From an uncultured Lachnospiraceae bacterium (lineage in GTDB: Bacteria > Bacillota > Clostridia > Lachnospirales > Lachnospiraceae): 34,203 nucleotides of DNA. Positions 5,287 to 25,969 of the stretch are shown piece by piece; the first letter of the stretch is position 1; the number at the start of each line of letters is the position of its first letter. A program made the translations under genes and the position numbers. Location of the stretch: NCBI GenBank assembly GCA_946414825.1, contig CAMKQB010000020.1:1-34203 (forward strand), written 5' to 3'. Below the pieces are notes generated by a model. It ran no database searches and had not been told where the DNA came from. It was given only the letters and a program-made list of their open reading frames with translations.

Positions 5287-6651
5287 ATGACAGAATTAAC
5301 TGCGAGTGCAGCTGCCAGAGAGATACATAAGCTCTCAAAACTGTGTGAGGTTAACAACTACATAAAACCAGAACTATATGAAGAGTATCATGTTAAGAGG
5401 GGACTTCGTGAGCCAAGTGGTAAGGGAGTTCTTACAGGTCTTACAGAAATCTCTACTGTAAATGGTTCGAAGGAAATAGATGGAGTTCTTACGCCTATCG
5501 AGGGCGAGCTTCGTTATAGAGGAATAGATATAAACGATCTGGTTAAAGGATTTACTAATGGTCATAGATTTGGTTATGAGGAAATAGTTTATTTACTTCT
5601 CTTTGGAACTCTTCCAAATCAGACTGAGCTGGATAAATTCAATGCACTGCTGGGGTATAATCGTAAGCTCCCACCAGATTTTGTCGAGGATGTAATACTT
5701 AAGAATCCTAATAAGGATGTCATGAATGCTATGTCACAGGCTGTTCTTGCACTTAATGCATATGATAAGCGTTCGGATGATATAGATATACCAAATGTTC
5801 TTCGACAGAGTATAGGACTTATTGCCAGCATTCCAATGATTGCTGCATATTCATATTTATCCTATCGTCATTACGTTTTGAGGCGAGGGCTATATCTTCA
5901 TAATCCAAAGCCTGAGCTGTCGACAGCAGAGAATCTTCTCAGAATGCTCAGACAGGATAAGAAGTATGACGAGGCTGAGGCAAAACTTCTGGATATGGCA
6001 CTTGTTCTTCATGCAGAGCATGGCGGTGGTAATAATTCGACATTTACAACTCACGTTGTTACGTCTTCGGGAACAGATACATATTCATCCATAGCTGCAT
6101 CTCTTTGTTCTCTTAAGGGACCAAAGCATGGTGGTGCTAATATCAAGGCTATGAAGATGTTCCAGGATATTAAAGCTAATATAAATGACTGGTATGATGA
6201 TGAAGAGATAGAAGCATACCTTAAGAAGATACTTTCCAAGGAAGCATTTGATCGTTCTGGACTTATATATGGTATGGGTCATGCGGTTTATTCTCTCTCA
6301 GATCCGAGAGCAAAGATTCTGAAGAAATATACTTTGGAACTTGCAGAGAAGAAGGGTAGAGATAGCGAGGCACATCTATATAAAACTGTTGAGCAGCTTG
6401 CTCCTAAGGTTATTGCTGAGAAGCGTAAGATATATAAAGGTGTATGTACGAATATAGATTTCTATAGTGGATTTGCATATGATATGCTCGGAATTCCAGA
6501 AGAGTTTATCACTCCGCTTTTTGCGATAGCACGTATCGCAGGCTGGAGCGCACATCGTATAGAAGAGCTGTTATGTGACGGCAAGATCATTCGTCCTGCA
6601 TATATGTCAGTCGCTGACAACTTGGACTACGTTCCACTAAACGATAGATGA
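5287..6651 (+). CDS. gltA: Citrate synthase
   Basis: Condenses acetyl-CoA and oxaloacetate to citrate. Family signatures are present: HAEHGGGNNSTF and GPKHGGAN (substrate/CoA region), GMGHAVYSLSDPRAK with the catalytic His, and NIDFYSGFAYDMLGIP with the catalytic Asp. At 454 residues it is longer than the 370-430 of many bacterial enzymes because of an N-terminal arm of about 55 residues, which is typical of this Firmicute subtype. ATG 5287 is chosen because GGAG at 5277-5280 lies 6 nt before it; the in-frame TTG at 5275 overlaps that ribosome site. The convergent neighbour is isocitrate dehydrogenase. No aconitase gene is in the window. Together these enzymes form the oxidative branch that makes 2-oxoglutarate for glutamate. 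Confidence 0.95.
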   Translation: MTELTASAAAREIHKLSKLCEVNNYIKPELYEEYHVKRGLREPSGKGVLTGLTEISTVNGSKEIDGVLTPIEGELRYRGIDINDLVKGFTNGHRFGYEEIVYLLLFGTLPNQTELDKFNALLGYNRKLPPDFVEDVILKNPNKDVMNAMSQAVLALNAYDKRSDDIDIPNVLRQSIGLIASIPMIAAYSYLSYRHYVLRRGLYLHNPKPELSTAENLLRMLRQDKKYDEAEAKLLDMALVLHAEHGGGNNSTFTTHVVTSSGTDTYSSIAASLCSLKGPKHGGANIKAMKMFQDIKANINDWYDDEEIEAYLKKILSKEAFDRSGLIYGMGHAVYSLSDPRAKILKKYTLELAEKKGRDSEAHLYKTVEQLAPKVIAEKRKIYKGVCTNIDFYSGFAYDMLGIPEEFITPLFAIARIAGWSAHRIEELLCDGKIIRPAYMSVADNLDYVPLNDR

Positions 6652-6666
6652 GACCACAAAAATGAA

Positions 6667-6718
6667 AAAAAGGGACGGTTCTCTTTTGCATATAGGCAAA
6701 AGAGAACCGTCCCTTTTT
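6667..6718. terminator. Perfect 23-bp bidirectional hairpin between gltA and icd
   Basis: Arms 6667-6689 and 6696-6718 pair without mismatch around a 6-nt loop. Each arm has a run of five A or T at its outer end, so either strand reads as a stem followed by T's. It serves both convergent genes. The core GGGACGGTTCTC resembles a dispersed repeat and is partly shared with the element at 15662-15865. Confidence 0.9.
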
Positions 6719-6725
6719 GCATAGT

Positions 6726-7931
6726 TTACATTGCTTCGAGGGTTGTGCGGATAGCCTTGATGAAGTCCTGAGTATTAAGTGTAGTGACATTCTCAAGCTC
6801 AGTTATAAGTGCCAGATCCTTTGTCATTGTTCCGTTCTCGATAGTGGCAATAGTTGCTTTCTCAAGCTTATCTGCAAATGCCATCAGCTCTGAATTGCCG
6901 TCAAGCTCGCCGCGCTTTCTGAGTGCGCCTGTCCAGGCGAAGATAGTAGCAACAGGGTTTGTTGATGTTTCTTCTCCCTTGAGGTGCTTGTAGTAATGTC
7001 TCTGAACTGTTCCGTGAGCCGCCTCGTATTCATATACTCCCTTAGGAGAAACGAGAACAGATGTCATCATTGCAAGTGATCCAAATGCAGAAGAGAGCAT
7101 GTCGCTCATTACATCTCCGTCGTAGTTCTTGCAAGCCCAGATGAAACCACCCTTTGACTTCATTACACGGGCTACAGCATCATCAATAAGTGTGTAGAAG
7201 TATTCGATACCGGCTGCATCAAACTTCTCTTTATATTCTGCATCAAAGATTTCCTGGAAAATATCCTTGAATGTGTGATCGTATTTCTTTGAAATAGTAT
7301 CCTTTGTTGCAAACCATAGGCTCTGCTTTGTATCGAGAGCGTATGTGAAACAGCTTCTTGCGAAGCTTTCGATTGATGGGTTAAGGTTATGCATTCCCTG
7401 AACAACTCCAGGACCGTCAAACTCATGAACGAGAACTGATTCCTGTGTTCCATCAGCGGCTGTATAAACAAGCTCAACCTTTCCTGCTCCTGGAATCTTC
7501 ATTTCGCTTGCTTTATATACATCACCATAAGCATGTCTTGCGATAGTGATTGGCTGCTCCCAGTTTCTTACGCAAGGAGTGATTCCTTTTACCTGAATAG
7601 GTGCTCTGAAAACAGTTCCATCGAGAATTGCTCTAATTGTACCGTTAGGGCTCTTCCACATCTCCTTCAAGTTATATTCTTCAACTCTTGCGGCGTTAGG
7701 TGTGATAGTTGCGCACTTAACAGCAACTTTATACTTTTCGGTTGCATATGCTGAGTCCTTTGTAACCTGGTCGTCAGTTTCGTTTCTGTGTTCGAGTCCT
7801 AAATCATAGTATTCTGTGTTAAGCTCGATAAATGGATTTAGAAGTTCGTCCTTGATGAGCTGCCACAGAATACGAGTCATCTCGTCTCCGTCCATTTCGA
7901 CCAGTGGGGTAGTCATTTTGATCTTGTCCAT
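6726..7931 (-). CDS. icd: NADP-dependent isocitrate dehydrogenase (eukaryote-like homodimeric type)
   Basis: Oxidatively decarboxylates isocitrate to 2-oxoglutarate with NADP. The 401-residue sequence matches type II (cytosolic eukaryote-like) enzymes rather than the E. coli type. It starts [17 protein letters not shown], then has [14 protein letters not shown] and [17 protein letters not shown] (substrate Ser/Arg loop), the metal Asp region YDGDVMSD, and [12 protein letters not shown]. The ATG at 7931 is preceded by GGAGGAAT. It is convergent with gltA over the shared hairpin. A possible -10 TATAAT lies at 7993-7998 on the minus strand, and a short hairpin (7953-7978) sits near the start of the predicted leader. 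Confidence 0.96.
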
Positions 7932-7950
7932 AATATTCCTCCATTTTTAA

Positions 7951-7983
7951 AGATTCTTCGGGATAAATCCCTCAGAATGACAT
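7951..7983. repeat. Short palindromic dispersed-repeat-like sequence in icd leader
   Basis: AGATTCTTCGGGA, loop TAAA, then TCCCTCAGAATGACA. The stem is 4 bp, an internal TC/TC loop (tandem G-A in the icd transcript), then 5 bp. The ends AGATTCTTCG and CTCAGAATGACA resemble, from memory, a palindrome scattered through many bacterial genomes. It lies in the 5' leader of icd. Confidence 0.5.
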
Positions 7984-7992
7984 TGTTTTTTA

Positions 7993-7998
7993 ATTATA
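7993..7998 (-). promoter_or_regulatory. Possible -10 element for icd
   Basis: Minus-strand TATAAT, about 62 nt upstream of the icd start codon. No convincing -35 sits 16-18 nt upstream (AT-rich sequence only), so this is a partial promoter call. Confidence 0.35.
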
Positions 7999-8030
7999 CC
8001 TAATTAAATGATTAAATAATTATCGCGGTT

Positions 8031-8828
8031 TTATAAGGTTTCAAGCAGTTGAAGTAAAACTTCAGTTTCACCATATTCCTTGAGGGGTGGGGCGATATGC
8101 TTAGCTACAGCCTTAATCTCATCGCGGGCGCTTCCGATAGCGTAGCTTTCTTCGGCAGCTGCCAGGAGTCCAAGGTCATTTAAATTATCTCCAAATGCCA
8201 TTGTTTCTTCCTTAGTTATTCCAAGTATCTTCTGGAGTGCCTGTAGGGAGCTTCCCTTGTCTGCGTCTGGATTAACGACATCCATCCACATTATACCTGC
8301 ACTGGCTATCTTGAACTTGTCCTTCCACTTATCGGTGAACCATTCATTTACGATAGCTTCTGCGTTATCCTTATGATAGATGGACAGCTTAACTATATCC
8401 TCTTTTATGTGTGATTCAAAATCACCAACAACTTCTATGTTGAAACGATACGAATCACGCATCCAGTAGAACATTTCACTTTTGTCTTCGCAGTAGGCTG
8501 TATCAAGTCCACTGAGCATTATATCGCAATCCTTCAGCTTCTTTATATCAGCTACCATCTCGAAGAGATCCTTGCGATTAATAACGCTCTTGGCATAAAC
8601 CCGCTTGGTATCTCTAACGACTGTTCCGCCTTCTGTAATATAGTAAATGTCCTCGCAAACAGGAGCGAATAGTCTAGCCATACTAGCGAACTGTCTACCA
8701 CTTGCCCCGACGTATATGATACCGCATTCCTTCAGTTTTTTAATGACATCGAACATCCTTGGATCAATCTCGGCGGTTCCATCTGGAACGAGAGTACCGT
8801 CGATGTCGCTTGCAATAAGTTTGATCAT
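8031..8828 (-). CDS. HAD superfamily hydrolase, Cof type (IIB)
   Basis: A predicted cytoplasmic phosphatase of the Cof/YbiV-like group, which acts on sugar phosphates and other small phosphate esters; the substrate cannot be told. Motif I is DIDGTLV near the N-terminus (nucleophile and general acid Asp), motif II is GASGRQ, and motif IV is AFGDNLNDLGLL. The cap insertion between them is of C2B size. The ATG at 8828 (MIKLIASDIDGT) or 8837 (MNNMIK) is preferred over the open extension to 8903. The extension would overlap the predicted promoter at 8875-8903, and AAGGA is placed for the 8828 start. The gene is divergent from the membrane protein at 8981. Confidence 0.88.
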   Translation of the reverse strand: MIKLIASDIDGTLVPDGTAEIDPRMFDVIKKLKECGIIYVGASGRQFASMARLFAPVCEDIYYITEGGTVVRDTKRVYAKSVINRKDLFEMVADIKKLKDCDIMLSGLDTAYCEDKSEMFYWMRDSYRFNIEVVGDFESHIKEDIVKLSIYHKDNAEAIVNEWFTDKWKDKFKIASAGIMWMDVVNPDADKGSSLQALQKILGITKEETMAFGDNLNDLGLLAAAEESYAIGSARDEIKAVAKHIAPPLKEYGETEVLLQLLETL

Positions 8829-15661: not shown

Positions 15662-15865
15662 AAAAAAGAACCGTCAGTTTATACATATGAATCGATAGCT
15701 CAATTTTCGTTAAATATGAAGAGAAAGCTTCATGAACTATATCGCGAGCGATGCTGTCTGAGCGAAGCGAGTTAAAGCGAGCGATATTTAGTTCATAGAA
15801 GGTTACTCGAAATATTTAGAAAATTGGTAGCGTGATTCAGATGTATAAACTGACGGTTCTTTTTT
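15662..15865. repeat. 204-bp long imperfect palindrome with perfect 25-bp ends
   Basis: The terminal arms 15662-15686 and 15841-15865 are exact inverse complements (AAAAAAGAACCGTCAG...). Pairing continues inward after single mismatches: TGAATC with GATTCA, CAATTTTC with GAAAATTG, then TAAATAT. In the centre, ATGAACTATATCGC faces GCGATATTTAGTTCAT around GAGCGAAGCGAG. Outer A/T runs make it a bidirectional terminator between the convergent genes. It could be a MITE or REP-type element. No coding frame is seen. Confidence 0.85.
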
Positions 15866-15875
15866 GTGAAGAAAA

Positions 15876-16643
15876 CTATGGGAATAGATAATTAATCAGC
15901 TCTTTGTTTCGTTTGTGATTGTCCTCTTGGTCACCAGCGAAGCCGATGTATATGTCGTCATATCCGACGTTAAGGGACTTCATGAATTCGTTATCTGAAA
16001 CATCAATTGCATATTGGCCAGGTTGACCATCCATATTATTGAGGATGACAATTTTGTCCTTTACCTTGTTGTAGGATTCTTCATCCAGATATTTATCAAG
16101 AGGGTAGAAGACATTTGTCTCGCCACAGTATACAGCACCTTCCATGTTAGTTATTACAACATCATAATAGTCGGCTGTTGCCATTGTTTCAAAGCTTATG
16201 TACTTCTGGCTGTTAGGGTTGGCCTCGTATTCGGAATTGTATTCTTCTTTTAGAAGCTGAACGTTTGTATCACCTTTTATCTGGTAGCCATCAAACTTAC
16301 CAATGTCTTTTGCGTATTGTTCTATAGCATCTACATTGAATTCCATCTGGTTTTGGCAATTAACTACAACGTAGGAAATAGTGATTGGTCTGGAAGTCTT
16401 ATAATATGATACACCGACTATTGTTAAAATAACTATTGCCGCAACAGCAATTATTATTTTTTCTTTGTAGTAGTATAGAAGATATTTTCTTTTCTCTGAA
16501 GGAGTCATATCTTTGGTGGTTTCTTCAATCTGTTCTTTCCTATACTTTCTACGTTCCTTTCGGGTCATAGAAACCTGATCTAGGTTACTAACCTCAGTCT
16601 TTTCAATTGGTTTTTCCTCGAGGTCTTTGGTCATTTGTCTCAT
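15876..16643 (-). CDS. Single-pass membrane-anchored protein of unknown function
   Basis: The 255-residue product has a highly charged cytoplasmic N-terminus rich in Lys/Arg/Glu (TRKERRKYRKEQIEE, about 27-41), one transmembrane helix (about 65-85, IIIAVAAIVILTIVGVSYY), and an exported domain of about 165 residues with no cysteine-rich or catalytic motif I recognise. The exported part (NCQNQMEFN, DYYDVVITNMEG, YIGFAGDQED) vaguely recalls binding-protein-like folds, but this is not a firm call. It is divergent from the sugar transporter operon with 359 nt between. In this family of bacteria such proteins often neighbour DUF624 genes and sugar transporters, so a transport-related role is a guess. 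AAAGGCGG precedes ATG 16643. Confidence 0.7.
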   Translation of the reverse strand: MRQMTKDLEEKPIEKTEVSNLDQVSMTRKERRKYRKEQIEETTKDMTPSEKRKYLLYYYKEKIIIAVAAIVILTIVGVSYYKTSRPITISYVVVNCQNQMEFNVDAIEQYAKDIGKFDGYQIKGDTNVQLLKEEYNSEYEANPNSQKYISFETMATADYYDVVITNMEGAVYCGETNVFYPLDKYLDEESYNKVKDKIVILNNMDGQPGQYAIDVSDNEFMKSLNVGYDDIYIGFAGDQEDNHKRNKELINYLFP

Positions 16644-16769: not shown

Positions 16770-16798
16770 TTGCATAATTGTTCATTATGACCTATAAT
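16770..16798 (+). promoter_or_regulatory. Sigma-A promoter with embedded palindrome, transporter operon 1
   Basis: TTGCAT (16770-16775) and TATAAT (16793-16798) are separated by 17 nt. Between and partly over them lies CATAAT-TGTTC-ATTATG (16773-16789), a perfect 6+6 palindrome in the place where a repressor would block RNA polymerase. The predicted start is near 16805. It is the only good promoter seen for either copy of the transporter. Confidence 0.8.
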
Positions 16799-17002
16799 AC
16801 ATCTATGTCGTGGCTAGAACATTGTGACGACGTATACTATTTGAGCCGGATGGCTCGAAAATATGCCAAAAAGATACAGAATATGACGAGTATTTCTCGG
16901 AATTGGCTTTAGAAGCTTCGGGCTTCTGATTATAAGGAAGTGGAGTATAAGTTATACGACGTATCAAGGACACACACAAATACAAAAAAGGAGGGTTTTT
17001 TT
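16799..17002 (+). promoter_or_regulatory. About 200-nt structured leader of transporter operon 1
   Basis: The stretch 16644-17002 has no gene; after the promoter it holds a long leader. Visible structures are GAGCC-GGAT-GGCTC (16843-16856), AGAAGC-TTCGG-GCTTCT (16911-16927), the perfect palindrome GTATAA-G-TTATAC (16945-16957), and a direct repeat ACGACGTAT (16827 and 16956). No T-tract follows the hairpins, so a classical attenuator is not evident. I recognise no riboswitch class. Confidence 0.5.
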
Positions 17003-18451
17003 GTGAAGAAGTTCAAAAAGGCAATGGCTTTATCACTTGCACTCGCTATGGGTCTTTCACTTGTAGCATGTGGCGATAAGGCAGAGGAAACAACAGAGGC
17101 AACTACAGAGGCTACAACAGAGGCTGCTGTAGACGACGCAACAGATGATGCTTCAGCTGATGAGGCTGTTGAGACTACAGAGGCTGATCTTTCAGCTGAT
17201 GGTAAGGTTCTTAACATTCAGTGCTGGAATGATGAGTTCGCTCGTCGTCTTAGAGATCATTATCCAGGATTCGAAGCTAACGATCCAGATGATGCTACAG
17301 CAGGTGGTAAGATTGGTGACATCGAAGTTAAGTTTACTGTAACTCCTTCAGATGACAACGCTTATCAGAACAACCTTGATGCTGTTCTTCCAGAGAACGC
17401 TGATGCAGCTGATGATGAGAAGGTTGACCTTTTCCTCGTAGAAGCTGACTATGCTCTTAAGTATGTAAATACTGATCTTACAATGCCTGTCGCTGACCTT
17501 GGTATTGATGTAGATACTGAGCTTGCTAATCAGTATCAGTATACAAAGGATATCGTAACAGACAAAGATGGAAACCTTAAGGGTGTTTCATGGCAGGGAT
17601 GTCCTGGTGTACTTATCTACAACAGAGAGGCAGCTAAGGAAGTTCTTGGATCAGATGATCCTGATACAGTTCAGGAAGCAGTTAAGGATTGGGATACATT
17701 CAATGCTACTGCTAAGGACATGAAGGACGCTGGATACAAGATGACAGCAACAGCAAACGATACATTCCGTGTATTCTCAGACAACGTTTCAACTCCATGG
17801 GTTGTTGATGGAAAGATCACAATTGACGATAACATCAAGAAGTGGGTTGATATGTCTAAGGAGCAGGTAGACAATGGTTATACAGGTACTGGTGACCTTT
17901 GGTCAGATGACTGGTCAGCAGGTTTCTATCCAGATGGTAAGGTATTTGCTTACTTTGGACCAGCTTGGCTTATCGACTTCTGTATGGCAGCTGATGATGA
18001 AGAGTCTATTGCCGCTCAGGGCGGTTGGGGCGCTACAACAGGACCTCAGGGATTCTCTTGGGGTGGTACATGGATCTGTGCAGCTAATGGTACAGATAAC
18101 CCAGCACTTGTTGCAGATATCATCAGAAAGCTTACAACAGATGAAGAGATCATGACAGGCATCGTTAAGGATGACAATGATTTCGTTAACAACAAGCCAG
18201 CAATGGAAGCTATGGCAGCTGATACAAGCTATGGCGATGACGTACTTGGCGGACAGAACGCACTTGCAATGTTCTGTGAAGGTGCTGACAAGATCGACAA
18301 GTCAAACATTTCTGAGTATGATCAGGGATGTACAGAGTCATTCCAGGCAGCTATGAAGGATTACTTCGAAGGCAACACAGCTACATATGATGAGGCTCTT
18401 GAGGCATTCTATACATCAGTATCAGAGAAGTATCCAGAGCTTACATACTAA
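17003..18451 (+). CDS. Sugar ABC transporter substrate-binding lipoprotein (copy 1, complete)
   Basis: An extracellular CUT1-type (family 1) solute-binding lipoprotein of 482 residues. The signal peptide MKKFKKAMALSLALAMGLSL ends in a lipobox VAC with Cys23. Then comes a T/E-rich linker (TTEATTEATTEA, about 30-41) and an acidic stretch, followed by the binding domain (DLFLVEADYALKY, WQGCPGVLIYNREAA, FYPDGKVFAYFGPAWL, WGGTWICAANGTDN). The start is GTG 17003 behind AAAGGAGG; an open TTG extension to 16940 is not needed. The ligand is unknown, presumably an oligosaccharide. A 40-bp sequence in the linker (17088-17127) is perfectly repeated in inverse orientation at 25088-25127. No ATPase gene is in the operon, so a shared MsmX/MsiK-type ATPase is likely. 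Confidence 0.95.
   Translation: MKKFKKAMALSLALAMGLSLVACGDKAEETTEATTEATTEAAVDDATDDASADEAVETTEADLSADGKVLNIQCWNDEFARRLRDHYPGFEANDPDDATAGGKIGDIEVKFTVTPSDDNAYQNNLDAVLPENADAADDEKVDLFLVEADYALKYVNTDLTMPVADLGIDVDTELANQYQYTKDIVTDKDGNLKGVSWQGCPGVLIYNREAAKEVLGSDDPDTVQEAVKDWDTFNATAKDMKDAGYKMTATANDTFRVFSDNVSTPWVVDGKITIDDNIKKWVDMSKEQVDNGYTGTGDLWSDDWSAGFYPDGKVFAYFGPAWLIDFCMAADDEESIAAQGGWGATTGPQGFSWGGTWICAANGTDNPALVADIIRKLTTDEEIMTGIVKDDNDFVNNKPAMEAMAADTSYGDDVLGGQNALAMFCEGADKIDKSNISEYDQGCTESFQAAMKDYFEGNTATYDEALEAFYTSVSEKYPELTY
17088..17127 (+). repeat. Left 40-bp perfect inverted repeat (in binding-protein linker)
   Basis: Encodes the linker just after the lipobox, starting within codon Glu29. It is the exact inverse complement of 25088-25127. 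It is itself made of short ACAGAGGC-type repeats (TTEA units). This repeat marks the 5' limit of homology between the two binding-protein genes, and is the proposed crossover site of an invertible segment. Confidence 0.9.
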
Positions 18452-18458
18452 GATTCAT

Positions 18459-18555
18459 TCTAAGCTATTGCTTAATAGGGTCGTCACTGACCTAAATTAA
18501 AAATTAATGCGTGCCTATATCGGGCCCGTTCCGATTGGGCACGCTTTAATTAACT
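18459..18555 (+). repeat. 97-nt identical noncoding block, copy 1 (structured intercistronic element)
   Basis: Lies between the binding-protein and first permease genes and is identical, base for base, to the inverse complement of 23606-23702. It folds as a small TAAGC-TATT-GCTTA hairpin, a GGTC/GACC hairpin, and a long stem (ATTAA, GCGTGCC, ATCGG paired with CCGAT, GGCACGC, TTAAT). In copy 1 a CTTTTTAT tract follows, as in a leaky terminator. Such elements usually let the binding protein be made in excess over the permeases. Confidence 0.85.
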
Positions 18556-18595
18556 TTTTATACACTATCAAATATGGTTTAGCGGAGGTAGCAGA

Positions 18596-19510
18596 ATGAA
18601 CAAAAAAAAGAGTGGAAACGTTGTACGCTTTAACCGTTGGGGGTATTTCTTCCTTATTCCTTTTGTAGTAGTGTTTATTGCATTCCAGCTTGTTCCACTG
18701 GTATCAACTATTTACAACAGTTTCTTTGAACATTATTTTAAAAATGGTCTTACAGAGGTTGGACCAACCCTAATTGGATTAGAAAATTATAAGACACTAT
18801 TTAAGAATGGTGACTTGATTAAATATTTTGGAAACACAATGATCATGTGGATCATGGGATTTGTTCCACAGATCCTCGTTTCACTGTTACTGGCTGCTTG
18901 GTTCTCAGATCCATCACTTAGACTGAAGGGTAGACCATTCTTCCAGTCAGTAATTTATCTACCAAACCTTATTATGGCATCTGCATTTGCAATGTTATTC
19001 TTTGCATTATTCTCAGATTCAGGTCCTATTAACTCAATGTTGGTTAATATGCACATTCTGAGTGAGCCATATAAGTTCTTGTCACATACAAGCAGTGCTA
19101 GATGGCTTGTAGCATTCATGAACTTCCTGATGTGGTTTGGTAATACAACTATTCTGCTTCTTGCAGGTATGCTTGGTATCGATACTACATACTACGAGGC
19201 AGCAGAGGTTGACGGTGCTACCGCAACACAGATATTCTTTAGAATAACTCTTCCAATCTTAAGACCAATCATGATTTTTGTTATGATTACATCACTTATC
19301 GGTGGTCTTCAGATGTTCGATGTACCTCAGATTCTTACAAATGGTGAAGGTTCACCTACAAGAACTACAATGACACTTATTATGTACCTTAATAAGCATC
19401 TGTACAGTAAGAACTATGGTATGGGTGGTGCCCTTTCAGTAATGCTGTTTATAATCACTGGTATCTTGAGTCTTATCGTATTCAAGTTTAATCAGCAGTC
19501 AGAGAAGTAA
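18596..19510 (+). CDS. Sugar ABC transporter permease, inner (MalF-like), copy 1
   Basis: A CUT1 permease of 304 residues with about six transmembrane helices (first at about 15-37). The EAA loop that contacts the ATPase is YYEAAEVDGATATQIFFRITLP at about 198-219 (pattern cited, key residues EAA, G, P). ATG 18596 follows the ribosome site GCGGAGG. It is separated from the binding-protein gene by the structured 97-nt element and from the second permease by 11 nt. By eye it is about 86% identical to the inverted copy at 22638-23552. Bases 19130-19248 are exactly shared with the inverted copy. Confidence 0.95.
   Translation: MNKKKSGNVVRFNRWGYFFLIPFVVVFIAFQLVPLVSTIYNSFFEHYFKNGLTEVGPTLIGLENYKTLFKNGDLIKYFGNTMIMWIMGFVPQILVSLLLAAWFSDPSLRLKGRPFFQSVIYLPNLIMASAFAMLFFALFSDSGPINSMLVNMHILSEPYKFLSHTSSARWLVAFMNFLMWFGNTTILLLAGMLGIDTTYYEAAEVDGATATQIFFRITLPILRPIMIFVMITSLIGGLQMFDVPQILTNGEGSPTRTTMTLIMYLNKHLYSKNYGMGGALSVMLFIITGILSLIVFKFNQQSEK
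19130..19248 (+). repeat. 119-nt identical island shared with inverted permease copy
   Basis: Exact inverse complement of 22900-23018, covering the helix and EAA loop of the first permease gene. The flanking coding sequence differs at many third positions (for example, the next codons are ACTCTTCCA here and ACACTTCCT there). Such an island points to recent exchange between the copies or very strong constraint. Confidence 0.85.
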
Positions 19511-19521
19511 AGGAGGGCAAC

Positions 19522-20379
19522 ATGGAAGAAAAGAAAACAAGTGGATTTGGTGTCCACACACGAAGAATAATTGCATATGTAGTCCTCATTATTGTAACTA
19601 TTATGTGTCTGTTCTGGTTCTATGTACTTTTCATTAATGCAACCAGATCTAATGCAGCACTTAAGAGAGGTTTCACACTTCTCCCTGGAGGATACCTTGG
19701 AAAGAACCTTTATAGTCTGTTCCACAACAGTAATCTTCCTATTATTAGAGGACTTTTAAACAGCCTTATAATTTCATTATGTACAGCAGGACTTAGTACA
19801 TATTTCTCAACAATGACAGCATTTGCTATTCATGCATATGACTTCAAGCTGAGAAAAGCAGCATTTACTTTTATCCTTGCAATCATGATGATTCCTACAC
19901 AGGTTACAGCACTTGGTTTCATCAACATGCTGAGAAGAATCAAACTTATGGATTCATTTATTCCACTTATTGTTCCTGCAATTGCAGCTCCAGCAGTATT
20001 CTTCTATATGAAGCAGTACATGGAAGCTAACATTCCTTTGGAACTTATGGAATCAGCACGTATAGATGGTGCAGGAGAGTTCCGTATATTCAATACAATA
20101 GCTCTTCCTCTTATGAAGCCAGCTATCGCTGTACAGGCTATCTTCTCATTCGTTACAAGCTGGAATAATTACTTCACTCCAGCACTTGTACTTAAGTCAG
20201 ATAACAAGAAGACACTTCCTATTCTTATAGCAACACTTCGTTCAGCAGACTTCCTTAAGTTTGATATGGGCCAGGTGTACATGTTCATAGCACTGGCTAT
20301 CCTGCCAGTTATCGTAGTATACATTTTCATGGCTAAGAACATCGTTGCTGGTATGACAGTAGGAGCTGTTAAGGGTTAA
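19522..20379 (+). CDS. Sugar ABC transporter permease, outer (MalG-like), copy 1
   Basis: A CUT1 permease of 285 residues with about six membrane helices. The EAA loop is LELMESARIDGAGEFRIF, at about residues 172-189, followed by LPLMKPAIAV. The C-terminus KNIVAGMTVGAVKG is typical of the MalG side. ATG 19522 has AAAGGAGG in front and follows the first permease by 11 nt. By my count about 251 of 285 residues are identical to the inverted copy at 21769-22626; most differences are in the first periplasmic loop (about residues 50-72), which could contact different binding proteins. Confidence 0.95.
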   Translation: MEEKKTSGFGVHTRRIIAYVVLIIVTIMCLFWFYVLFINATRSNAALKRGFTLLPGGYLGKNLYSLFHNSNLPIIRGLLNSLIISLCTAGLSTYFSTMTAFAIHAYDFKLRKAAFTFILAIMMIPTQVTALGFINMLRRIKLMDSFIPLIVPAIAAPAVFFYMKQYMEANIPLELMESARIDGAGEFRIFNTIALPLMKPAIAVQAIFSFVTSWNNYFTPALVLKSDNKKTLPILIATLRSADFLKFDMGQVYMFIALAILPVIVVYIFMAKNIVAGMTVGAVKG

Positions 20380-20400
20380 TTTAAAAATGTATATAAATAT

Positions 20401-20438
20401 AGGAGCTAAACCGAATGGTTTGGCTCCTATTTTCATTT
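20401..20438 (+). terminator. Terminator of transporter operon 1
   Basis: AGGAGC-T-AAACC, loop GAAT, then GGTTT-G-GCTCCT (20401-20428, with one T-G pair), followed by ATTTTCATTT. It lies 21 nt after the second permease stop. Confidence 0.85.
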
Positions 20439-20448
20439 ATGTATTCAT

Positions 20449-20567
20449 AGCTGACAAGTAGCTAACAGATAGCTAACATGCGTTTTACCTTAGTTTAATT
20501 ACAATTATACTATTTTTCCAAATTATTTTTTCTTGGTAGCTAACAGATAGCTAACACGTAGCTTACA
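20449..20567. repeat. Two triplets of phased 9-mers TAGCTNACA beside the recombinase gene
   Basis: TAGCTGACA at 20449, TAGCTAACA at 20459 and 20470; then TAGCTAACA at 20537 and 20548, and TAGCTTACA at 20559. The spacing inside each triplet is 10-11 bp, one helical turn, and the triplets are 88-89 bp apart. They lie immediately downstream of the recombinase stop codon. This looks like arm-type sites for the integrase N-terminal domain or for a directionality factor. An AT-rich stretch (20490-20530) separates them. Confidence 0.7.
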
Positions 20568-20575
20568 ATATCATA

Positions 20576-21637
20576 CTATTTATATATTCTTATCTTTTCT
20601 ATTTCATCTTTTAGTGATTCTATACTCCTATGAGTATAAACTCTTTCTGTTATATCTTCTGTAGTATGTCCTACTATTTGTTTTATTATAAAATCATTCA
20701 TATTAGCTTCCTTTGCTAATGTGATGAAGGTATGTCTAGTATCATGAGGCTTATGATTCATATTAAAGGAATTCATTATATTAATGAATCTTCGATTATA
20801 TTTAGTATAATTTATTGAATTCGATTTTGAATCAAATAGGGCTGGAAGAGAATTATTCTTAGCATACTTATATCTATCTGTAATCAAATCTATTATTTCA
20901 CTATGAATAGGTACAATTCGATTGATACCTGCGCTTGTCTTCATTCCACCATACATTGTCATATCTTCAAGTGATATATTATTTGTTTGTAATTTGGTGA
21001 GTTCCTGTGGACGCCATCCTGTATAAATCGCGATGACAATCATATCTACATAGGGTTTATCAACATTTTTCCAAAGCATATGTAGTTCTTCTTCTGAAAA
21101 TGGATTTCTTGTATATACTGGTGGATCAGTTTGTATTTTATCGCAATACTCAGAATAATTAGTATTTGAAATTTCACATTTAATTGCATATTTATATAAC
21201 AAGTTACAGAGACTTTTAATTTTCTTCTTTGTACTGCTATGTACTGGGGCATTCTTAATGCAATCATCTAAATCTCTAGTTCGTATATCTGTAAATTGAA
21301 TATTATGAAGAGGAGATAGGTAAGAATATGCTGACTTCCATGTTCTAACAGCAGAGGGACTTATTTCGGCAAAATGAACCTTGCTCCATTCGGAGTATAC
21401 ATCACTTAATTTGTATTTTCTTTTCCTCATATCGTAAGGAGAATGGATGTATTCAGTAAGTGCTAAGATAGCATCATCTCTGTTTTCAAAATATCCAATG
21501 GGCGTTCGATTTTGGATATATCTATTATCATTTTTGGTACAGCTTGATGTGATAACAGCAACATACGGTCTGGACCTCCTTCCTGATAGTTTGTAAACAG
21601 AACCTAAACCATTTGCTCTTTTTAAATCTGTTTTCAT
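20576..21637 (-). CDS. Tyrosine recombinase / phage-type integrase
   Basis: The 353-residue protein has three domains: an N-terminal arm-binding domain (GLGSVYKLSGRRSRPYVAVI, about 10-66), a SAM-like core-binding domain (about 72-165), and a catalytic domain with every expected residue: Arg209 (TGWRPQEL), Lys233 (GMKTS), His298 and Arg301 (HDTRHTF), His324 (VGHTT) and Tyr334 (ERVYTH). It therefore appears active. It lies alone, with no excisionase, relaxase or phage gene beside it, between two inverted copies of a sugar transporter operon and near the centre of the interval bounded by the 40-bp repeats. Codon use looks more AT-rich than neighbours (many ATA, TTA, AAT), which suggests transfer. 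AAAGGA precedes ATG 21637. Confidence 0.95.
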   Translation of the reverse strand: MKTDLKRANGLGSVYKLSGRRSRPYVAVITSSCTKNDNRYIQNRTPIGYFENRDDAILALTEYIHSPYDMRKRKYKLSDVYSEWSKVHFAEISPSAVRTWKSAYSYLSPLHNIQFTDIRTRDLDDCIKNAPVHSSTKKKIKSLCNLLYKYAIKCEISNTNYSEYCDKIQTDPPVYTRNPFSEEELHMLWKNVDKPYVDMIVIAIYTGWRPQELTKLQTNNISLEDMTMYGGMKTSAGINRIVPIHSEIIDLITDRYKYAKNNSLPALFDSKSNSINYTKYNRRFINIMNSFNMNHKPHDTRHTFITLAKEANMNDFIIKQIVGHTTEDITERVYTHRSIESLKDEIEKIRIYK

Positions 21638-21711
21638 TTTTGCGTATCCTTTCTTTATGTGATTTAGTAAAGTAAAAGGATAATATATATTTTTTAAAAG
21701 TCAAATTGGAT

Positions 21712-21739
21712 AAAAAAAGGGTAGGCATTGCGCCTACCC
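21712..21739 (-). terminator. Terminator of transporter operon 2
   Basis: On the minus strand GGGTAGGC, a short loop, then GCCTACCC and seven T. It lies about 30 nt after the stop of the second permease in the inverted copy and upstream of the recombinase gene, which should insulate the recombinase from transporter transcription. Confidence 0.88.
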
Positions 21740-21768
21740 TATCTAAATACATGTGATGTAAATTATAA

Positions 21769-22626
21769 TTAACCCTTTACAGCACCTACTGTCATACCAG
21801 CAACGATATTCTTAGCCATAAAGATATATACAATGATAACTGGAAGTATAGATAATGCGATAAACATGTATACCTGACCCATATCGAATTTCAAATAATC
21901 TGCAGATCTTAGAAGTGCGATAAGGATTGGAAGTGTCTTCTTGTTATCTGATTCTAGTACTAGTGCAGGAGTAAAGTAGTTATTCCAACTTTGTACAAAT
22001 GAAAAGATAGCCTGTACAGCAATAGCTGGCTTCATAAGTGGAAGCGCTATTTGGTTAAATATACGTAACTCTCCAGCACCATCGATACGTGCTGATTCCA
22101 TAAGTTCCAAAGGAATGTTAGCTTCCATATATTGCTTCATATAGAAGAATACTGCTGGAGCTGCAATTGCTGGAACTATAAGAGGAATAAATGAATCCAT
22201 AAGTTTGATTTTTCTCAGCATATTAATGAAACCAAGCGCAGTAACCTGTGTAGGAATCATCATGATTGCTAAGATAAATGTAAACATAAATTTCTTAAGC
22301 TTGAAATCATAAGCATGAATAGCAAATGCTGTCATAGTTGAGAAATATGTACTAAGTCCTGCTGTACATAGAGCAATTACTAAACTGTTTAAAAGTCCTC
22401 TGGCTATTGGTAATTCACTATTTGAAAATAGATTTTTAATGTTATCAAGCATGTGACCGCCAGGGATAACAGTAAATCCTCTTCCTAATTCAGAATTTGA
22501 TCTGGTTGAATTTATAAATAATACATAAAACCAGAAAAGACATAGTATAGTGATGATAACGAGGACTACATAAGCGATTATTCTACGTGTGTGGACACCA
22601 ATTCCACTTGTCTTCTTTTCTTCCAT
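21769..22626 (-). CDS. Sugar ABC transporter permease, outer (MalG-like), copy 2
   Basis: Intact 285-residue paralogue of the gene at 19522-20379, with the same start MEEKKTSG, the same EAA loop (MESARIDGAGELRIF) and C-terminus GMTVGAVKG. It has no frameshift and no internal stop. About 34 substitutions by eye, clustered around residues 45-72 (the first outer loop). The ribosome site AAAGGAGG is kept. It is third in the inverted operon, whose first gene has no detectable promoter, so in this orientation it may be silent. The intact frame argues for continuing selection. Confidence 0.94.
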   Translation of the reverse strand: MEEKKTSGIGVHTRRIIAYVVLVIITILCLFWFYVLFINSTRSNSELGRGFTVIPGGHMLDNIKNLFSNSELPIARGLLNSLVIALCTAGLSTYFSTMTAFAIHAYDFKLKKFMFTFILAIMMIPTQVTALGFINMLRKIKLMDSFIPLIVPAIAAPAVFFYMKQYMEANIPLELMESARIDGAGELRIFNQIALPLMKPAIAVQAIFSFVQSWNNYFTPALVLESDNKKTLPILIALLRSADYLKFDMGQVYMFIALSILPVIIVYIFMAKNIVAGMTVGAVKG

Positions 22627-22637
22627 GTTGTCCTCCT

Positions 22638-23552
22638 TTACTTCTCTGACTGCTGATTAAACTTGAATACGATAATACTCAAGATACCAGTTATAATAAA
22701 CATCATTACTGATAGTGCGCCACCAATACCATAGTTCTTACTGTATAAATGCTTATTTAAATACATAATTAATGTCATAGTTGTTCTGGCTGGTGAACCA
22801 CTACCGCTTGTGAGAATCTGAGGTACATCAAACATCTGAAGACCACCGATAAGTGATGTTATCATAACATAGATAAGGATAGGTCTTAAGATAGGAAGTG
22901 TTATTCTAAAGAATATCTGTGTTGCGGTAGCACCGTCAACCTCTGCTGCCTCGTAGTATGTAGTATCGATACCAAGCATACCTGCAAGAAGCAGAATAGT
23001 TGTATTACCAAACCACATAAGGAAGTTCATGAATGCTACAAGGAATCTTGCACTTCCAGTATTAGACATAAAACTGTATGGTTTATCGAATATTCCTATG
23101 CTTTGGAGAATCTGGTTAATTGGACCAACTGTTGAAAACAGTGTAAAAAATAGCATAGAAAATGCCGAAGCCATAATTAGATTTGGCAGATAGATAACTG
23201 ACTGGAAGAAAGGTCTGCCTTTCAGTCTAAGAGATGGGTCTGAGAACCATGCTGCCAGCAGAAGAGATACAACGATCTGAGGAATAAAACCGGCAATCCA
23301 CATAATCATTGTATTTCCGAAATATTTAAATAAATCACCTTTAGTAAATAGTGTCTTATAATTTTCTAATCCAACAAAGGTTGGTCCGATTTCTGTCAGA
23401 CCATTTTTAAAATAGTGTTCGAAGAAACTGTTGTAAATAGTTGAAATGAGTGGAATCAACTGAAATATGATAAATACTACAACAAAAGGAATCAGGAATA
23501 TATAGCCCCAACGGTTATAGCGTACAACATTTCCATTCTTTTTTTTATTCAT
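22638..23552 (-). CDS. Sugar ABC transporter permease, inner (MalF-like), copy 2
   Basis: Intact 304-residue paralogue of 18596-19510, about 86% identical by eye. The start MNKKKNGNVVR, ribosome site GCGGAGGTAG and EAA loop (EAAEVDGATAT) are conserved. Most substitutions fall in one outer loop (about residues 138-166: PINQILQSIGIFDKPYSF here against PINSMLVNMHILSEPYKF in copy 1). That loop would face the binding protein, so co-divergence with the binding protein is plausible. An 11-nt gap to the next permease is kept from copy 1. Confidence 0.94.
   Translation of the reverse strand: MNKKKNGNVVRYNRWGYIFLIPFVVVFIIFQLIPLISTIYNSFFEHYFKNGLTEIGPTFVGLENYKTLFTKGDLFKYFGNTMIMWIAGFIPQIVVSLLLAAWFSDPSLRLKGRPFFQSVIYLPNLIMASAFSMLFFTLFSTVGPINQILQSIGIFDKPYSFMSNTGSARFLVAFMNFLMWFGNTTILLLAGMLGIDTTYYEAAEVDGATATQIFFRITLPILRPILIYVMITSLIGGLQMFDVPQILTSGSGSPARTTMTLIMYLNKHLYSKNYGIGGALSVMMFIITGILSIIVFKFNQQSEK
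22900..23018 (-). repeat. 119-nt identical island, inverted copy
   Basis: The partner of 19130-19248 inside the inverted first-permease gene. See the mosaic-identity finding. Confidence 0.85.
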
Positions 23553-23605
23553 TCTGCTACCTCCGCTATACCTTAATTATGATAGTGTATTGTTTGTAAA
23601 TTTTT

Positions 23606-23702
23606 AGTTAATTAAAGCGTGCCCAATCGGAACGGGCCCGATATAGGCACGCATTAATTTTTAATTTAGGTCAGTGACGACCCTATTAAGCAATAGCTTA
23701 GA
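23606..23702 (-). repeat. 97-nt identical noncoding block, copy 2
   Basis: Exact inverse complement of 18459-18555, between the headless binding-protein gene and its permease. The stem is unchanged, but the sequence after it is TAACTAAAAATTT, so the T-tract seen in copy 1 is missing. The block might work mainly as a processing or stability element rather than as a terminator. Confidence 0.85.
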
Positions 23703-23709
23703 TGGAAGA

Positions 23710-25125
23710 TTACTGAGCAAGCTCAGGATACTTCTCACCAATAGCAGTATAGAATGCGTCGAGTGCTTCTTCATATGTTGCGTAATTACCATCAAAGTAA
23801 TCCTTCATAGCACTCTGGAATTCTTCGCAACATCCCTGATCATATGCAGAAATATTTGAAAGATCAATCTTTTCAGCTCCTGCACAGAACTTATCAAGAG
23901 GATTCTGTCCACCAAGTACTGCGAATGCATAAGAATCATCTGTTGCAGCAGCTTCCATAGCAGGCTTATTGTTAACGAAATCGTTATCAGCCTTAACTAT
24001 CTCTGTCATAACATCTTCATCAGTTGTAAGTGTTCTCATGATATCAGCAACAAGGTCAGCATTATCTGTACCATTTGCTGCACAAATCCATGTACCACCC
24101 CAATAGAATCCCTGAGGACCTTCTGTAGCTCCCCAGCCGCCGTTTGCTGCAATAGATGCTGGATCGTCAGCCTTCATTGAGAAGTTGATCAGCCATGCAG
24201 GTCCAAAGTAAGCAAATACCTTTCCATCTGGGTAGAATCCCTGATTCCAAGCATCTGACCAAAGCTCATCAGTTGTTGTATATCCGTTATCAACCTGCTC
24301 TTTTGACATGTCAACCCATGCCTTGATGTTATCATCAATATTGATCTGATCATCAACTACCCATGGTGTTGTTACGTTATTTGAGAATACACGGAATGTA
24401 TCATTAACTGTTGCTGTCATCTTGTATCCAGCGTCTTTCATCTTTGCAGCTGTTTCATTATATGTATCCCAATCAGCTACAGCCTTCTGTACATCTGCAG
24501 GATCATCTGATCCAAGAACTTCCTTAGCTGCTTCTCTGTTGTAGATAAGTACACCAGGACATCCCTGCCATGAAACACCCTTAAGGTTTCCGTTTGAATC
24601 TGTTACGATATCCTTTGTATACTGATACTGATTTGAAAGTTCGCTTTCATCAATACCAAGTGCTGAAACAGGAACTGTATAATCTGTATCAACATACTTA
24701 AGCGCATAGTCAGCTTCTACAAGGAAAAGGTCAATCTTATCATCAGCTGCTGCATCAACATTACCTGGAAGCTTTGAATCCAGGTTATCCTGATATGCAT
24801 TATCCTTTGATGGTGTTGACTTGAACTTGATTGTTATATCACCAATCTTTCCAATTTCGCCATCAACTGTTACATTGTTGTCTGCATCTGTTCCTTCTTC
24901 GATCATCTTGTCATAATCATCAGCTGTCACGAAGTCAGGATAATGATCCTTGAGTCTTGTAACGAACTCTGTGTTCCAACCCTGGATGTAGAGCACCTTA
25001 CCATCATTAGATGTTGTGTACCCTGCATCATCATTTGATGCTGTATCAGCATCATCAGCTGATGCATCCTCTGTTGTGTCATCTGATGCAGCCTCTGTTG
25101 TAGCCTCTGTAGTTGCCTCTGTTGT
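23710..25125 (-). CDS. Sugar-binding protein copy 2, headless: no start, signal peptide or lipobox
   Basis: A paralogue of the binding lipoprotein at 17003-18451, roughly 70-75% identical by eye, with an insertion of about 15-20 residues near its N-terminus (KMIEEGTDADNN). The frame is open for about 470 codons from the linker (TTEATTEATTEA) to TAA, with no frameshift. It has no usable beginning: the codon before the linker is TAA (25126-25128), preceded only by ATG AAT GTG. No ribosome site, lipobox or promoter is seen, and a strong terminator lies just upstream. The first in-frame start is GTG 24996, inside the binding domain. As it stands the gene is silent or makes a non-exported protein. 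I interpret it as a reserve cassette; a relic is the alternative. Confidence 0.85.
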   Translation of the reverse strand, partial: TTEATTEATTEAASDDTTEDASADDADTASNDDAGYTTSNDGKVLYIQGWNTEFVTRLKDHYPDFVTADDYDKMIEEGTDADNNVTVDGEIGKIGDITIKFKSTPSKDNAYQDNLDSKLPGNVDAAADDKIDLFLVEADYALKYVDTDYTVPVSALGIDESELSNQYQYTKDIVTDSNGNLKGVSWQGCPGVLIYNREAAKEVLGSDDPADVQKAVADWDTYNETAAKMKDAGYKMTATVNDTFRVFSNNVTTPWVVDDQINIDDNIKAWVDMSKEQVDNGYTTTDELWSDAWNQGFYPDGKVFAYFGPAWLINFSMKADDPASIAANGGWGATEGPQGFYWGGTWICAANGTDNADLVADIMRTLTTDEDVMTEIVKADNDFVNNKPAMEAAATDDSYAFAVLGGQNPLDKFCAGAEKIDLSNISAYDQGCCEEFQSAMKDYFDGNYATYEEALDAFYTAIGEKYPELAQ

Positions 25126-25127
25126 TT
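25088..25127 (-). repeat. Right 40-bp perfect inverted repeat
   Basis: Exact inverse complement of 17088-17127, in the same codon phase. Homology to copy 1 stops abruptly at its outer edge: beyond it the sequence is unrelated (ACACATTCATTGC and the DUF624 terminator). Confidence 0.9.
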
Positions 25128-25140
25128 ACACATTCATTGC

Positions 25141-25175
25141 AAAAAAAATCATCCATAGTATAAAACTATGGATGA
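25141..25175 (-). terminator. Terminator of the DUF624 gene, directly outside the right repeat
   Basis: An 11-bp stem (25149-25159 with 25165-25175), loop of 5, followed on the minus strand by eight T (25148-25141). It ends 14 nt before the 40-bp repeat and would stop DUF624 transcripts entering the headless gene. Confidence 0.92.
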
Positions 25176-25198: not shown

Positions 25199-25969
25199 TT
25201 ATTCTCTAGGTTTTTCTATTTTGTCGTAGAATCTTATTAGTAGCATTGAGCTTACATATGTAAAGAAAGCTGTTAGGAACAAGGCCCAGAGGAACCAAGT
25301 GTATACCAGGATTCTTGGATTCAGGAAGTACAGCATACTTGGAAATGACCAAATAAAGAATATTTTTATCCAGGTTCCTAGGTTGGCGAGAGAGAAGACT
25401 AATGCATTTCTCATAAGATTAAATGTTGTATTCTCATATCTGGCAACCATTGGGAACTGAAGAGGTATAGCAAATGCTGCAAGTATGAACTCAAACCCAA
25501 GTATTACATAAATGATACGTGCTGTTTCACTGTTACTAGTGATAACATATGAATACTGTAAATACATCAGGAATAGATATATCAGATCTACTATCCAGAT
25601 GATGGTTCCCTGCTTTAGATTCTCTCTAAAGGCTTTGAAATAAGCTTCCTTAACGGGACTTTCATCGTCCTTAACCATTTTGTTAGTAACGGTGTATAGT
25701 GCAGTAAATGCAGCTCCGATCGTTACTATAGGTATACAGGTTATAAAGAAGTAAATATTCAGGAAGAAGAGATCGCCGAATTTATCTATTACATTGAAGA
25801 ACCGCTGTGCTTTTGTCGGCTTAACGCGAGCTTCTTCGCTTTCTTCTTTCTTTTCTTCAATCTGAGGCTTATCTGCATTTTGTGCAGATAGTGTATCAGA
25901 TAGTTGTTCAGTATCTTGTTTTTTATTATCTAATTTGTTGGAATTCTTGCTAGAATTGTTTTTAGACAT
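25199..25969 (-). CDS. DUF624 (YesL-like) membrane protein
   Basis: The 256-residue protein has a hydrophilic Asn/Lys/Glu-rich N-terminus (about 1-55) and then about five membrane helices. The first carries FNVIDKFGDLFFLNIYFFITCIP in pattern, with the DUF624 hallmarks of an early Phe-rich helix, a CIPIVTIGAAFTALY motif, and GTIIWIVDL. YesL-type proteins are commonly found with CUT1 sugar transporters; their role is unknown. It is probably part of the original transporter locus. It has its own promoter and its own terminator. The ATG at 25969 has GAAAGG about 10 nt upstream, a fairly weak ribosome site. Confidence 0.88.
   Translation of the reverse strand: MSKNNSSKNSNKLDNKKQDTEQLSDTLSAQNADKPQIEEKKEESEEARVKPTKAQRFFNVIDKFGDLFFLNIYFFITCIPIVTIGAAFTALYTVTNKMVKDDESPVKEAYFKAFRENLKQGTIIWIVDLIYLFLMYLQYSYVITSNSETARIIYVILGFEFILAAFAIPLQFPMVARYENTTFNLMRNALVFSLANLGTWIKIFFIWSFPSMLYFLNPRILVYTWFLWALFLTAFFTYVSSMLLIRFYDKIEKPRE

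Follow-up and report, generated by a model that had tools for sequence, protein, structure and literature searches.

The 34,203-nucleotide (nt) stretch of DNA analysed here (hereafter, the window) is the entire contig C20 (GenBank CAMKQB010000020.1) of a 2.05-Mb draft genome (G000) of an uncultured Lachnospiraceae bacterium. Within it, the segment 17088–25127 is very probably a site-specific inversion switch that chooses which of two ATP-binding cassette (ABC) importers is expressed. In the proposed mechanism, a fixed promoter, ribosome site and lipoprotein signal would lie outside the left end of the segment and a terminator outside its right end, with two convergent cassettes inside, each read in frame from the same repeat, just past the lipid-anchored cysteine. 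The tyrosine recombinase Int, encoded between the cassettes, would recombine the two linker repeats and invert 8,040 bp; each inversion would link the other substrate-binding protein (SBP) and its permeases to the sole expression head and park the previous set, headless, behind the terminator. The int gene would stay within the segment together with its own upstream region, and orientation should not affect it. Over evolution, the silent slot would also take in different cassettes.

The preliminary description of this DNA placed two facing transporter operons around a tyrosine recombinase gene, a layout that is borne out by the alignment of the arms and by PF00589 and PF00528 matches. The operons SBP1-F1-G1 (17003–20379, plus strand) and G2-F2-SBP2 (21769–25125, minus strand) are convergent, with the recombinase gene in between, and the inverted arms 17088–20381 and 21767–25127 show a complementarity of 71–90% piecewise and 81% overall. 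The features of which the switch would consist are the following:

16770–16798, plus strand: candidate fixed promoter TTGCAT-17-TATAAT, found by eye; it falls below the threshold of the consensus scan and is therefore not listed there
16990–17071, plus strand: fixed expression head outside the invertible segment, with ribosome site GGAGGG, GTG start, signal peptide and lipobox cysteine
17003–18451, plus strand: SBP1, a lipoprotein and sugar-type binding protein, in the expressed slot
17088–17127, plus strand: left arm of the perfect 40-bp inverted repeat, coding for the TTEATTEATTEA linker
18596–19510, plus strand: F1 permease (PF00528)
19522–20379, plus strand: G1 permease (PF00528)
20576–21637, minus strand: tyrosine recombinase Int (PF00589, E 1.8e-16)
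21769–22626, minus strand: G2 permease (PF00528), 88.1% amino acid identity with G1
22638–23552, minus strand: F2 permease (PF00528), 86.5% amino acid identity with F1
23710–25125, minus strand: SBP2, a headless binding protein lacking a start and a signal peptide, 75% amino acid identity with SBP1
25088–25127, minus strand: right arm of the 40-bp inverted repeat, abutted by an in-frame TAA at 25128–25126

Copy 1 is preceded by GGAGGG and begins with GTG and the lipoprotein signal MKKFKKAMALSLALAMGLSLVAC (the signal was read by eye), and its repeat begins 16 nt past the lipobox cysteine codon. The copy-2 frame extends back to the repeat without encountering a start, up to the TAA that abuts the repeat there; the codon phase at the repeat is the same in both copies, and the copy-2 reading frames are open. 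Thus, the sequence agrees with the earlier claim that only copy 1 possesses a ribosome site and a signal peptide, the promoter being a candidate recognized by eye, and the frame reading agrees with the claim that the SBP2 gene begins exactly at the 40-bp repeat, in identical phase. This is the layout of the vsa type (see the comparison below), with one expressed head, a silent copy that lacks promoter, ribosome-binding site and N-terminus, and the same phase at the site. The absence of a promoter from copy 2 was judged from a hairpin in the outer flank and from by-eye reading. The same head is found in a related genome, G018, and, over the last 70 bases ahead of the repeat core, in another, G040. 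Two features of the outer flank, on the far side of the right arm, are relevant here:

25149–25175, minus strand: terminator-like hairpin separating the DUF624 gene from the headless slot, kept in genomes G018, G009 and G040; it would insulate the silent cassette
25199–25969, minus strand: gene for a DUF624/MusI-like membrane protein (PF04854), in the outer flank

The repeat is perfect over 40 bp and bounds the segment at 17088–17127 and 25088–25127, the coordinates at which it was originally reported. Its length alone is not special, because it is only the sixth longest among the identical runs between the copies (119, 97, 59, 44, 44 and 40). Its boundary position is unusual: a leading identical run of at least 38 arose in 0.0001 of 20,000 mismatch shuffles, and beyond the repeat the two sides are dissimilar, with 29% identity in register across 200 bp. 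The DNA of the TTEA linker is common, parts of the query 16940–17127 matching in 57 of the 61 genomes of the genus; the 35-base core, with up to three mismatches, occurs at four places in its own genome, and the two exact ones are the two arms. A chance repeat was considered and rejected, as the repeat sits at the boundary and also precedes the distant SBP3 described below; judging by sequence, chance would not account for either. An assembly artefact was rejected as well: the outer-flank junction recurs in four assemblies, and repeats of 37–43 bp are shorter than the usual short reads. A search of viral contigs with the 37-base repeat pattern gave no matches.

Further evidence comes from relatives. 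The comparison set consisted of the 61 genomes of the genus, with genome distance judged by sequence identity alone. The outer flank 25128–25420 matches in 10 of these, at full length and at least 92% identity in four (the window's genome, G018, G009 and G040), the remaining six matches being weaker (65–78%) and partial. In all four flank-keeping genomes, the flank is followed by the core and then by a headless SBP, which is SBP2 in the window and in G040, SBP3 in G018 and SBP1 in G009. On contig C172 of G009, the order is DUF624 gene, terminator-like hairpin, ...gtgtaa, repeat (core 35/35) and SBP1; the SBP1 stretch corresponds to window 17088–17791 with 99.1% identity across 704 nt and no gaps, and on its other side the contig follows window 34201–25047 with 92.7% identity. 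Inversion had been predicted to leave SBP1 headless beyond the 25128 side, and exactly this junction is present here. The proposed check of orientation in related genomes thus yields the opposite junction in G009, and G018 and G040 keep SBP1 behind the head; in total, three genomes (the window's, G018 and G040) have SBP1 in the expressed slot and one has it in the silent slot.

Over the 470 codons compared, the headless SBP2 of the window and that of G040 differ by 46.8 synonymous changes and 16.2 non-synonymous ones, giving a ratio of non-synonymous to synonymous substitution rates (dN/dS) of 0.085 (pairwise NG86), and this substitution pattern indicates that the headless gene is under purifying selection. 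The respective values for the paralogues within the window are 0.22 for SBP1/SBP2, 0.13 for F1/F2 and 0.11 for G1/G2. That SBP2 is kept without a start codon is most simply explained if it is expressed at times. These findings bear on the alternative, already raised in the preliminary description, that the locus is an inverted duplication of an importer operon with a lost 5' end, copy 2 being a fading relic and Int the leftover of a mobile element. The copies are indeed paralogous and 81% identical, and the relatives of Int outside the genus are not linked to importers (none of 29 loci, with flanks of up to 1.5 kb, as detailed below). However, the open frames of copy 2, the low dN/dS of the headless SBP2 between two genomes, the presence of SBP3 in G018 and of SBP1 in G009 headless at the same repeat, and the recurrence of the layout in two further genomes, G016 and G003, contradict it. 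A decaying duplication is rejected primarily because the headless SBP2 is under purifying selection, and we regard this explanation as very unlikely.

In G018, the outer flank and the repeat lie ahead of SBP3, which comes with its own permeases and DUF624-like gene. SBP3 is 36% identical to SBP1 in alignment, with local matches of 32% to SBP1 and 28% to SBP2, yet an exact 43-base stretch is common to SBP3 and copy 1 of G018. The silent slot of G018 (L031, 5590–9870) comprises SBP3-F3-G3 and the DUF624-like gene plus a 69-amino-acid C-terminal fragment of another G permease beside int, perhaps a scar of cassette replacement. The presence of SBP2 or SBP3 in the same slot of sister genomes would also be expected if the slot-2 cassette were a mobile gene cassette inserted by Int at a fixed attachment site in the linker, with evolutionary replacement and no inversion within the population. 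This possibility is in keeping with repeats beside int that resemble phage arm sites and with the mobile-element-like genes (judged by eye) that surround two Int relatives, L032 and L033. However, a cassette that lacks promoter and signal peptide would serve no purpose if it never came to lie at the head, selection keeps the headless SBP2, and SBP1 occupies the silent slot in G009. Moreover, because the repeats are inverted, recombination between them inverts rather than excises, which disfavours a mobile cassette; we consider it unlikely.

A third alternative is that the inverted copies undergo RecA-dependent recombination or gene conversion, by which the two slots exchange sequence with no dedicated site-specific recombinase. 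Identical tracts of 119, 97 and 59 bp within the cassettes fit such exchange, and so does SBP2 of G040, which has 97.4% amino acid identity to the SBP2 of the window and a copy-1-like linker, being equal to copy 1 at 32 of the 33 bases directly past the core. However, crossover within the cassettes would leave the expression head unmoved, SBP3 has little homology beyond the linker, and four genomes have their junction at one and the same short repeat. Furthermore, a recombinase with a complete catalytic set, itself under selection, lies between the cassettes. As the sole explanation, homologous exchange appears very unlikely.

In Int, the residues R209, K233, H298, R301, H324 and Y334, which we take to be the catalytic ones, are invariant in a five-sequence alignment, so that the R-K-H-R-H-Y set is intact, and dN/dS between the int genes of the window and G018 is 0.110. 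Compared with NCBIfam, where all scores fell below the cut-off, and with the PDB, Int is best matched by Xer-type recombinases and by proteins that bear the name Int or integrase. We infer that Int catalyzes the inversion and that switching is reversible in a population. The scan of proteins encoded between the cassettes and next to them yielded no phage or conjugation genes, and so does not point to a resident prophage or integrative and conjugative element (ICE). A scan of genome contigs with Int produced four loci, two of which (L031 in G018 and L034 in G040) represent the locus described here. The other two, L032 (E. aggregans) and L033 (Clostridiales), lie outside the genus, and their neighbours resemble phage or integrative-element genes, as judged by eye. 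In a wider scan of the family, Int had a match at E<=1e-40 in 62 of 397 genomes, its own included. Among the 30 loci examined from these 62 genomes, 29 came from other genomes, and none of these 29 non-genus loci carried proteins of the locus (SBP, F, G, DUF624, ABC-F, HD or DnaG; E<=1e-6, flanks of up to 1.5 kb), so that integrases of this family are not generally associated with importers. Int was probably domesticated from a phage- or ICE-type integrase.

The stretches between int and the cassettes on either side of it carry the following features:

20399–20430, plus strand: terminator-like hairpin 3' of G1
20448–20567, no strand assigned: two clusters, each of three TAGCTAACA-type repeats recurring every 11 bp; putative arm-type sites for the recombinase
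21718–21740, minus strand: terminator-like hairpin 3' of G2

The TAGCTAACA 9-mer clusters behind int are kept in G018 and in G040, where the spacer between the clusters has diverged. From sequence, we predict them to be arm-type binding sites of Int. The exact TAGCTAACA doublet occurs in three of the 61 genomes, the window's, G018 and G003, at two places in each, and is adjacent to int in the first two. In G003, one exact doublet begins 82 bp ahead of the headless repeat, which ties the arm-like motif to the crossover region. The second exact doublet of G003 (L257, contig C24, 2158–2181) is carried on a 3.2-kb contig, following a G-end, a DUF624 gene and one unknown gene.

The locus was then surveyed across the genus. 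The HD gene that flanks it is present in 52 of the 61 genomes, the window's included, and the locus was inspected in 53 other genomes, that is, 51 with HD plus G013 and G042, which were fetched via their SBP. An inverted headless SBP beside HD was found in five of the 53 (G009, G018, G040, G016 and G003), or six of 54 with the window, which is a lower bound; thus, headless SBP genes next to inverted copies, the search for which had been suggested as a check, do exist in other genomes of the genus. Another 22 genomes had just one SBP, headed and on the HD strand, no SBP was contained in the fetched stretch in 21, often since the contig ends, and in three (G030, G034 and G041) the end of the contig or of the fetched stretch truncated the SBP at its 5' end. 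In the more distant G016 and G003, similarity between the headed and headless genes also starts abruptly, and the boundary is marked by an exact repeat, which in G016 spans 26 bp from the lipobox codons onward and in G003 spans 19 bp within the linker. The Int of G016 is split over the ends of the two cassette-bearing contigs, with 24 bases common to both, and is 47% identical to the Int of the window over residues 3–253 and 57% over residues 287–353. Together with the G009 junction, the selection on SBP2 and the SBP3 of G018, the layouts of G016 and G003 support the phase-variable choice of importer that was originally suggested. Beyond this, we lean slightly towards the view that the locus is a genus-wide plug-in switch, in which one head serves interchangeable cassettes that are flipped by a domesticated integrase and replaced by distant SBP1, SBP2 and SBP3 types between sister species. 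Through DNA inversion, anaerobic Bacillota would then bet-hedge on the nutrients that their ABC importers take up, and the crossover, at the lipobox or in the linker past it, would exist in three or more separate forms.

Several other genomes depart from these patterns. At the locus of G012, a remnant of Int lies next to an apparent single cassette split over two contigs. G002 (L228, contig C32, 2075–3424) combines a headed SBP with an inverted SBP beside HD, the reading frame of the latter continuing into a membrane-anchor N-terminus of a different kind. In G005 (L230, contig C4, 46000–54811, approximately 6150–8700), a different tyrosine recombinase, 22–34% identical to Int piecewise, ends directly before an inverted SBP3-like gene; this inverted SBP beside HD has a broken frame and a retained signal peptide, and the usual GGAGG leader is absent. 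G005 possibly represents an independent switch with crossover at the start codon. In G041 (L077/L078, contigs C7 and C17), the contig ends overlap exactly over 94 bp of signal-peptide and linker DNA, as if the head/linker piece had several contexts in the sample. A contig of G059 also ends at the head or linker; neither this case nor that of G041 was counted as proof.

A number of observations weigh against the inversion switch. The contig of G009 stops inside SBP1, 702 bp past the start of the core, and the 70%-complete assembly contains no match to the promoter side and no Int; because both are absent from the assembly, the silent slot of G009 may instead have been replaced by a copy of SBP1. 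More generally, the opposite orientations come from assemblies of different genomes rather than from reads of one population. The long identical tracts within the cassettes suggest gene conversion as well. In G040 (contig C56, L034/L074), F1 of the expressed cassette appears interrupted, with residues 205–222 unmatched and two overlapping pieces, which reflects either a real lesion or an assembly error. The assembly of G003 lacks Int (best E 0.061), and G059 has an Int (57%) beside HD and no headless SBP within the 3.2 kb of contig sequence on the other side of Int, and is therefore a case against strict pairing of Int with a headless SBP. As for the recombination sites, the repeat is not palindromic, the arm-like repeats of the window lie 3.3–4.6 kb from the crossover repeats, unlike the adjacent arms of phage att sites, and the doublet with up to two mismatches occurs at 21 places in 10 genomes, compared with 8 places in 7 genomes for the reversed control. 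Finally, another recombinase of the genome could act on the repeats.

All four permeases match PF00528 (BPD_transp_1), and an SBP with two such permeases makes up a sugar ABC importer of the CUT1 type. SBP1 and SBP2 had no match in the Pfam search; in the PDB, a profile built from the SBPs hit 5ixp (solute-binding protein family 1; E 7.7e-11) and 8bfy, which is a cellobiose-binding protein (E 6e-9). The top NCBIfam matches of F1, below the cut-off, are sugar and glycerol-phosphate permeases, and the DUF624 protein scored 95.7 bits, against a cut-off of 160, with MusI_fam, the membrane component of the maltose importer MusEFGK2I. We infer that the two importers have different ligands. The locus is flanked by ABC-F, HD, dnaG and rpoD genes, and the window contains 12 terminator-like hairpins, compared with 4.3 in shuffles. 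Between the ABC-F gene and the gene at 15876–16643, at 15662–15865, there is a 32-bp inverted repeat (97%) with arms 140 bp apart; the same repeat is found in the G018 locus L031, its arms just 8 bp apart.

If the switch operates as proposed, clonal populations would be split by nutrient preference. Inversion appears to select a complete ABC importer in a Gram-positive gut bacterium, the exchange point being placed so exactly that distant SBPs can share one signal peptide. Automatic annotation would probably label headless SBP genes as truncated or as having a wrong start; headless, terminator-insulated SBP genes facing an integrase provide a signature by which further cases can be searched for.

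Most known cases of phase variation by inversion concern surface antigens, capsules, restriction-modification specificity and the nutrient receptors of Bacteroidota. Among the systems that rely on tyrosine recombinases, pneumococcal hsdS includes silent truncated copies. Inversions among the hsdS genes, with PsrA as the recombinase, are the point of similarity; that system differs in that DNA methylation specificity, not nutrient import, is switched. In the SusC/SusD family of Bacteroides, site-specific inversion alters the expression of nutrient receptors, according to two reviews (PMC12632263, PMC11868660), but these are outer-membrane receptors of Bacteroidota, as opposed to Gram-positive ABC importers. 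The Ureaplasma UU172 element similarly alternates the expression of two adjacent genes by inversion (PMC3047005), but involves surface antigens and no transporter cassette. In the vpma system of Mycoplasma agalactiae, inversion by the tyrosine recombinase Xer1 places silent lipoprotein genes behind one promoter (PMC2268961), but the sites are in 5' untranslated regions and the products are variable surface lipoproteins.

No invertible ABC-importer switch is described in the titles and abstract beginnings among the matches listed in our literature search, and the main text of an inverton survey (PMC11892184) does not mention "ABC transporter", "substrate-binding" or "sugar". The preliminary statement that no case with this layout had been described thus holds for the importer cargo, within those matches, but not for inversion that joins a promoter and a 5' end to silent genes, which is described for vsa of Mycoplasma pulmonis (PMC2268961). 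There, inversion associated with the tyrosine recombinase HvsR joins the promoter, the ribosome-binding site and the first 714 nt to a silent 3' gene part, so that, by layout, the two systems are alike in having a single promoter, ribosome-binding site and 5' coding end that are joined to a silent lipoprotein gene. Unlike the switch proposed here, the vsa inversion carries along 714 nt of 5' coding sequence, and what it switches are variable surface proteins; here, the exchange would occur right past the lipobox, the cargo consists of an SBP and two ABC permeases, and the recombinase is encoded inside the invertible segment. By this comparison, the inversion principle itself is known, and what would be new is its combination with whole importer cassettes, in Bacillota, on a vsa-like expression site.

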